Assembly: GCA_903847155.1 (NCBI GenBank)
Contig: CAINCU010000012.1
Location: 62,001-126,000 of the forward strand
Direction: 5' to 3'
DNA from: an uncultured Gallionellaceae bacterium
GTDB taxonomy: Bacteria; Pseudomonadota; Gammaproteobacteria; Burkholderiales; Gallionellaceae
Length of the DNA: 64,000 nucleotides
In this document: positions 35,540 through 36,709 of the stretch, piece after piece
How the letters are laid out: the number at the start of each line of letters is the position of its first letter
How positions within the stretch are numbered: the stretch's first letter is position 1
Notes under the pieces: generated by a model
What the model was told of the DNA's origin: nothing
Seen by the model: only the letters and a program-made list of their open reading frames with translations
The model's database searches: none
Position numbers and translations under genes: made by a program

Positions 35540-36709
35540 TTACTTGATGATGCCGCCACCGAGGCAGATTTCGCCGTCATATACCACGACGGATTGGCCG
35601 GGAGTGACTGCCCATTGGGCTTCTTCGAAGTCGAAATGGGCGGTGGCATTTTCCATCAATGCGAAATGGCAAGCGGCATCCTGTTGGCGATAGCGCGTCT
35701 TGGCGGCGTAACTTTGCGTGGCATCAGGCGCATGACCGCTGATCCAGTGCATGTCCAGCGCATCCAGTTGCTGGTTGAACAGCAACGGATGGTCGTGTCC
35801 CTGCACCACGATCAGACGGTTGCGCGGCATGTCCTTGCCCGCCACGAACCACGGTTCGCCCGTAGTTTCGCGCGAACCGCCGATGCCAAGTCCTTGACGC
35901 TGGCCTATGGTATAGAACGACAGGCCGATGTGCTGACCGACAACGTTTCCTTCTGGCGTGCGGTTGCGACACGGTGGCGTGGAATGCTCTGGCGCGGGAG
36001 CAACCGCATGTGACCCCCTCCCGCAATCTGGCCTGTCGGCTAACGTGTCGGGGGTCACCATATCTCCCGGTTTGGTGGGCAAATATTGAGTCAGGAATTC
36101 GCGGAACGGGCGCTCGCCGATAAAACAGATGCCGGTGCTGTCTTTCTTCGAATGGTTGGAAAGATGGTGTTCGCGCGCGATGTCGCGTACTTGCGATTTG
36201 AGAATTTGTCCCAGCGGGAACATGGCTTTGCTTAACTGTTGCTGGTTCAAGCGTTGTAGAAAATAACTCTGGTCTTTGCTGTCGTCTCTGGCTTTCATTA
36301 GTTGGAACGAGCCATCCACTTCGCGCACTTGCGCGTAATGCCCGGTAGCGATGGCATCCGCACCCAGGCGGATGGCGTGATCCAGAAAGGCTTTGAATTT
36401 GATCTCGGAATTGCACAGGATGTCCGGGTTCGGCGTGCGACCGGCCTCGTATTCGCGCAGGAAGTAGCTGAACACGCGATCTTTATATTCCTTGGCGAAG
36501 TTCACTGCCTCGATGGGAATGCCGATGGTGTCGGCTACCGCGACCGCGTCGATCAGATCCTGGCGCGAAGAACAATATTCGCTGTCGTCATCGTCTTCCC
36601 AGTTCTTCATGAACAGGCCGATGACTTCATAGCCCTGTTGTTTCAAGAGGAGTGCCGTGACCGAGGAATCCACGCCGCCGGACATGCCGACAACGACACA
36701 CTTACTCAT
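35540..36709 (-). CDS. mnmA: tRNA 2-thiouridylase MnmA with an unusual internal insertion
   Basis: Thiolates U34 of tRNA-Glu, Gln and Lys. The 389-residue protein has the PP-loop [15 protein letters not shown] near residues 8-22, catalytic Cys99 in [12 protein letters not shown] and Cys195 in [12 protein letters not shown], and the C-terminal beta domain. Between KPGDMVTPD (ending residue 221) and [12 protein letters not shown] (from 254) there are 32 extra residues with Pro, Arg, His and Cys that the family does not have. Without them the length would be a normal 357. The reading frame stays open, so function may persist since the loop is probably at the surface. Confidence 0.94.
35951..36058. 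repeat. Two stem-loops inserted in frame within mnmA
   Basis: The 96 bases 35951-36046 are absent from a normal mnmA. With the flank they hold two perfect 9-bp inverted repeats in tandem: TGCGGTTGC (35959-35967) with GCAACCGCA (36000-36008), and GTGACCCCC (36010-36018) with GGGGGTCAC (36050-36058). The insert is a multiple of three and encodes residues 222-253 of MnmA. It looks like a mobile palindromic element tolerated inside a coding region. Confidence 0.75.

Follow-up and report, generated by a model that had tools for sequence, protein, structure and literature searches.

What are 96 extra bases, folded into two tandem inverted repeats, doing inside an open and apparently intact gene for a tRNA-modifying enzyme, and how did they come to be there? 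This question is raised by mnmA in a 64,000-nucleotide stretch of DNA (the window) from an uncultured bacterium of the family Gallionellaceae. An earlier note made from the sequence had described two perfect 9-bp inverted repeats in tandem, and both were found at the positions it gave, 35959-35967/36000-36008 (I4) and 36010-36018/36050-36058 (I5). That the insert lies in frame was likewise borne out: the minus-strand ORF at 35540-36709 stays open through both repeats, and the match to the MnmA family profile covers residues 5 to 388 of its 389-amino-acid product. The solved structure 2der, of E. coli MnmA, aligns up to query residue 221 and then resumes from residue 251. MnmA matches were present in 60 of the 61 genomes searched (own genome counted), and none of the 29 mnmA loci fetched from relatives carries the additional 32 residues, the aligned region being 93-102 nt shorter there. 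Comparison with these empty sites places the 96 bases (32 codons) best at 35958-36053, a position that may shift by 2 because 'AC' is shared at both ends; the interval first proposed, 35951-36058, does hold the repeats and includes host bases as well. The parts of the mnmA copy are as follows.

35540-36709, minus strand: mnmA, tRNA 2-thiouridine(34) synthase (ORF, family match and structure alignment)
35958-36053, minus strand: 96-nt insertion of 32 codons, one of several equal placements (empty sites)
35958-36058, minus strand: match of covariance model R1 at mnmA
36050-36058, minus strand: outer arm of hairpin 1, GTGACCCCC on the gene strand (inverted repeat)
36054-36058, minus strand: host (mnmA) part of the hairpin-1 outer arm (empty sites)
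36044-36049, minus strand: conserved box GACACG of hairpin 1 (alignment A1)
36019-36026, minus strand: conserved box TTGCGGGA of hairpin 1 (alignment A1)
36010-36018, minus strand: inner arm of hairpin 1, GGGGGTCAC, complementary to host GTGAC (family consensus GGAGGTGCG)
36000-36008, minus strand: inner arm of hairpin 2, TGCGGTTGC (inverted repeat)
35994-35999, minus strand: conserved box TCCCGC of hairpin 2, reverse complement of a hairpin-1 box (alignment A1)
35968-35974, minus strand: conserved box CCGTGTC of hairpin 2, reverse complement of GACACGG (alignment A1)
35959-35967, minus strand: outer arm of hairpin 2, GCAACCGCA, ending in CCGCA, the commonest right end

Hairpin 1 is composed of a 9-bp stem, a box (GACACGTTAC), an inner 4-bp hairpin and the box TTGCGGGA. 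It is directly followed by hairpin 2, in which a 9-bp stem likewise encloses a box (TCCCGCACC), an inner 4-bp hairpin and the box CCGTGTC, so that loops of 31-32 nt lie under the 9-bp stems. Since hairpin 2 repeats the boxes of hairpin 1 largely as their reverse complements, the element amounts to an inverted pair of one ~50-nt unit. When the region 35945-36064 was folded as RNA, two adjacent hairpins formed at -48.1 kcal/mol, compared with a mean of -38.4 for shuffled sequences (z -2.5). Rfam had no match on the element; its sole match between 35500 and 36800, with E values up to 5 allowed, lies at 36215-36294 and falls far below the cut-off.

The earlier note had taken the insert for a mobile element, and its stem-loop pair does recur in the genome. 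While a DNA search of the own genome with the exact insert sequence returned the mnmA copy as the only full-length match, the covariance model R1 found seven places (11 matches, both strands), namely mnmA and six others. R1 was built from alignment A1 of 75 copies, taken from 89 distinct full-length copies after 14 (second copies, orthologues and weak ones) had been dropped by hand; copies with a different right arm (class C, below) are absent from the 89. In a DNA search over 61 genomes, copies of ~98-101 bp, mostly 70-80% identical, were found in many genomes of the same genus. R1 matched in 98 of 158 genomes of Gallionellaceae (own genome counted), no genome giving more than about 25 matches. 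Of 399 genomes sampled from the order, 20 had a match, and 14 of these lie outside the family. A pattern scan of named genomes gave 105 stretches with the element, and their hosts were mostly Gallionella, Sideroxydans, Ferrigenium, Sideroxyarcus and Gallionellaceae, Gallionellales or Nitrosomonadales MAGs, the few others bearing only the submitter label Proteobacteria or Gammaproteobacteria. It is hard to credit, then, that the insert is a native domain of MnmA or an assembly artefact: the single full-length copy returned by the DNA search would suit such an origin, but the empty sites of all fetched relatives and the presence of the family in so many genomes and in unrelated genes speak against it.

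Several variants were seen along the way. Genomes from other families of the order (L346-L350) contain weaker relatives of the element, mostly 103-105 nt long, and two contigs from a viral collection (IMG/VR; L208, L209) hold the element outside long ORFs. Tandem copies with a period of 99 occur in three stretches (L065, L075, L082), in frame within one ORF, which in L082 is that of acrylyl-CoA reductase. In two copies of the own genome, C5:17864-18026 and C14:52590-52752 (L213, L214), a second hairpin of ~55-62 nt is nested in hairpin 1, as it also is in L086 and L091; an ATG stands within a few bases after the two own-genome copies.

Among the 75 aligned copies, 24 of the 26 pairs showed two-sided changes and 95.9% of 1919 cells were paired, and because the fold thus recurs elsewhere with compensated differences, its formation in the mnmA insert is not due to chance. 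None of 500 shuffles, which keep the relatedness among copies, reached the observed covariation on any of five measures, and slid versions of the alignment dropped to 29-59% paired. An alternative fold, a single long hairpin in which the two hairpins pair with each other, had almost no covariation and was rejected. Two-sided changes (271 cells) far outnumbered one-sided ones (30), and G-U pairs made up only 33 of the 1919 cells. Together, the scarcity of G-U and the predominance of two-sided changes point to pairing of DNA rather than RNA, or to events that alter both sides together. Eight genomes share an orthologous insertion in an MsbA-like transporter, and paired changes were seen there too: 3 of 26 pairs carried two-sided changes, in 7 cells; 35 of 500 shuffles reached three pairs and none reached 7 cells.

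Strong covariation and conserved loop boxes are also what would be expected if selection preserved the hairpins for a function, as RNA or as DNA, in regulation or in protein binding, with the compensatory changes arising by ordinary selection. We consider this improbable. G-U pairs are commoner in RNA helices than they are here, the copies stand in both orientations and in many unrelated genes, and Rfam, as mentioned above, does not match the element.

A further feature of this family is the relation between the hairpin-1 stem and the host. Since the insert is bounded by the empty sites in relatives, the five outer-arm bases of hairpin 1 at mnmA are the gene's own, and in general the left flank is host sequence and yet forms the outer part of this stem. 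Empty sites were read for mnmA, glnE, the dipeptidase, acrylyl-CoA reductase, earP, recG and mfd (the last in one relative). The left flanks are NNGCA-like and end in GCA in 52 of 75 copies, and the family's default inner arm reads TGCGA. At mnmA, host GGTGA stands opposite inner-arm TCACA, at glnE host CTGCG opposite CGCAC, and at earP host CTGCC opposite GGCAT; in these three genes, for which relatives have empty sites, the flank is other than GCA, and the inner arm deviates from the default together with it. Over the 70 ungapped copies, flank and inner arm matched in 94-100% of cases at the nearest three columns, in 74% at the fourth and in 11% at the fifth, giving a five-column mean of 0.757 compared with 0.608 after shuffling (0 of 2000 shuffles as high). 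In 23 copies the flank does not end in GCA; their inner arm fitted better than the default in 12, equally well in 10 and worse in one. Judged from these sequences, hairpin 1 tends to carry an inner arm complementary to the host sequence where the element was inserted, a feature of which we found no earlier description in the open-access literature searched.

Left and right 5-mers agreed at 0.739, compared with 0.663 in shuffled sets (0 of 2000 as high). A 5-bp target duplication, such as would be looked for in a MITE, is nevertheless not shown for the copies in general, for mnmA and many others show no duplication and keep CCGCA at the right, an end shared by 37 of 75 copies including that in mnmA. 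In mnmA the right end is CCGCA and the left flank GGTGA, so that apart from the common AC no duplication of the target is seen.

We think it likely that the mnmA insert is a copy of a non-autonomous mobile palindromic DNA element whose arms have been corrected by template switching and which is tolerated in frame. The element measures ~96-99 net bases and consists of two inverted ~50-nt hairpins, in which the loop boxes are conserved and the stems vary; it is found beside NNGCA-like sites. Its mobility, as suggested by the dispersed copies and empty sites, would depend on an enzyme acting in trans, with single-stranded hairpins as the probable mobile form. The host flank would be copied into the inner arm by template switching of the polymerase (quasi-palindrome correction), either in the course of insertion or later, and the same process would keep both stems near perfect. 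Template switching during replication has been described as creating and repairing hairpin stems (PMC8794818), and we regard such correction as the likeliest cause of the match between arm and host.

An alternative cause of this match is that the inner arms are guides which choose the site by pairing with single-stranded target DNA, so that the arm would match the flank from the start. The ends of IS200/IS605 elements bear guide sequences, and the GCA of most left flanks would fit the TGC of the default inner arm. At mnmA, moreover, the right-hand CCGCA is the element's own and no target duplication is seen. A Y1 transposase gene was found in all 16 tested genomes with the element and in 12 of 16 without a match, a weak contrast in favour of guided insertion. 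Nonetheless, of 40 stretches around Y1 genes only two gave an R1 match to the element, which lay 2-3 kb from the gene. The geometry also differs, in that the hairpin-1 arm encloses its hairpin, unlike the arrangement at the left end of IS608, and the paired changes at the orthologous site would require an additional process. Guided insertion predicts the same final match of arm and flank as template switching does; we regard it as unlikely. Its further-reaching form, in which the inner arms read the target by pairing and act as a rewritable address, such that after every insertion the arms would match the new site, mutated arms would reach new sites and the element would be a minimal, self-reprogramming hairpin pair tolerated by proteins, we consider doubtful as well, and a degree more so.

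Among the RAYT and Y1 genes inspected, no mobilising enzyme was found. When the Y1-gene stretches L351-L420 were scanned for half-elements, such as the ends of a parent transposon would give, only the two complete copies were returned. Genes with the RAYT motif (~170-220 aa) were present in the stretches of 14 of 16 element-bearing genomes and of 3 of 16 genomes without a match, two of these three having been recognised by motif and one by eye, and the comparison covers only the Y1 hits that were fetched. None of the four Y1 hits of the own genome was recognised as a RAYT-type gene. Eleven RAYT genes were printed with 260-nt flanks; GTAG-type palindromes adjoin them and the element was in none, which counts against guided insertion and led us to reject RAYT as the cognate enzyme. 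In six of the stretches (L381, L383, L384, L391, L392 and L400) the RAYT gene is flanked by GTAG repeats of the type GTAGGTCGGGTTAGCGCAGCGTAACCCGAC.

How do genes accommodate the element? Copies occur in both orientations, within genes and outside them. We scanned 40 host ORFs, picked from copies in open frames, with NCBIfam and Pfam; 30 had a family match and 10 had none. In 22 of the 40, to which mnmA is additional, the element is either flanked by matches on its two sides or crossed by one, the second side having been inferred for some from the stretch count, the profile position or further comparisons where only the best stretch was printed, and in eight the match does not bracket it. The bracketing families are MsbA or MsbA-like (two sites), AceE, acrylyl-CoA reductase, QseC-like kinase, beta-Ala-His dipeptidase, RecG, MnmC, EarP, TIGR01777, GlpK-like kinase, GlnE, AroA, CoA-binding protein, RlmN, RibD, Mfd, YhdP (two ORFs), RelA/SpoT, ArgS and glucose-6-phosphate isomerase. 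Counted by these matches, some 20 conserved gene families hold an in-frame copy. Of the own-genome copies, that in ribD keeps the frame, and one in a family-4 uracil-DNA glycosylase stands in an open frame with a family match on the upstream side only. The added protein segment, where translated, would comprise 32-33 residues, among which Ala, Gly, Pro and Ser are by eye abundant. Dipeptidase (L267/L272, G010) and recG (L339, G011) contain other extra segments in frame, of ~8 and ~60 residues; by eye these are distinct from the present family and look like further translated repeats.

The reading frame was assessed on 111 of 143 distinct hits, partial and stretch-end hits having been dropped, by asking whether an ORF of 200 aa or more ran through each of them and extended 30 aa beyond it on either side; such spanning ORFs are defined by length only and may be antisense. 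Class A comprises copies whose model length is a multiple of three (net 96/99), class B 25 copies of net 98, one of net 97 and one of net 104, and class C the copies with a different right arm, whose length cannot be taken from the model. Spanning ORFs contained 50 of 60 class A, 7 of 27 class B and 21 of 24 class C copies, compared with 1455 of 1963 random positions in the same stretches (74%); classes A and C are thus found in genes as often as this background or somewhat more often, and class B much less often. By copy, A and B differ with a Fisher value of 4e-7. Over 61 site clusters, A and C together gave 38/49 versus 5/12 for B (p=0.03), and class A alone 24/33 versus 5/12 (p=0.08). An earlier cut without weaker-ended copies had given 54/66 versus 7/27 in spanning ORFs; with those copies added and class C counted as frame-shifting, the figures were 52/64 versus 28/49 (p=0.007), with no difference at the cluster level.

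Class C was set apart, on the basis of its different arm, after this pooled grouping had given no cluster-level difference. Its classification as frame-shifting (net 98 by the model) was rejected, as the empty mfd site (L207, one relative) gives net 99. In 6 of 8 class C ORFs scanned, family matches in one frame were found on both sides, and the 21 class C copies within ORFs share a single frame; class A copies in ORFs use mainly two (25 and 18 of 50). A tblastn search for empty class C sites in the fetched loci returned one weak candidate. The element consensus is open in five of six frames, which is not unusual (205 of 1000 shuffles). Survival of copies within genes would follow from this openness together with a net length that is usually a multiple of three.

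The best-known translated palindromic elements are those of the obligate intracellular Rickettsia, and here a palindrome family is found in iron-oxidising Gallionellaceae, where it inhabits conserved genes such as argS, aceE, relA/spoT, msbA, recG, mfd and ribD. What seems new is that the inner arm tends to mirror the host gene at the insertion site. Arms that tend to match the flank are a natural record of how hairpin arms are made or chosen at insertion, so that template switching and guided targeting could be separated by sequencing alone.

In comparison with known systems, IS200/IS605 elements have a left flank that is host sequence and right-end bases that are the element's, both pairing with inner bases, and the mnmA copy resembles them in each respect; the arm geometry of its left-end hairpin differs, and no such transposase is linked to the element. 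REP doublets, or REPINs, moved by RAYT are likewise inverted hairpin pairs of ~100 nt, and RAYT genes occur in many genomes with the element. However, its consensus lacks a GTAG tag, its loops measure 31-32 nt, its matches number at most about 25 per genome, and the RAYT genes in its genomes bear their own GTAG-type repeats. CGTC-tagged REPs have 8-9 bp stems, head-to-head pairs, intragenic copies and no dedicated transposase, with loops of 4-5 nt and mostly a CCA tail (PMC3733652). The element shares the stem length, the paired units, the intragenic copies and, among the genes inspected, the lack of a dedicated transposase with them and differs in its long loops and a consensus without CGTC. 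The text of that paper (PMC3733652) mentions neither Gallionella nor Sideroxydans, and in the open-access literature searched we found no paper on a palindromic or repeat element of Gallionella and nothing on this family. Rickettsia palindromic elements are dispersed palindromes of ~100-150 bp that lie in frame in unrelated conserved genes and add a translated segment (PMC2229807, PMC10969869), and the domains they encode are treated in PMC2635572. The earlier note's comparison with them is supported as regards the way of living, as many copies of the ~100-bp dispersed palindrome described here lie in frame inside unrelated conserved genes. The likeness is one of description, and the element is set apart by its lineage, its twin hairpins, its long conserved loops and an inner arm that tends to match the flank.
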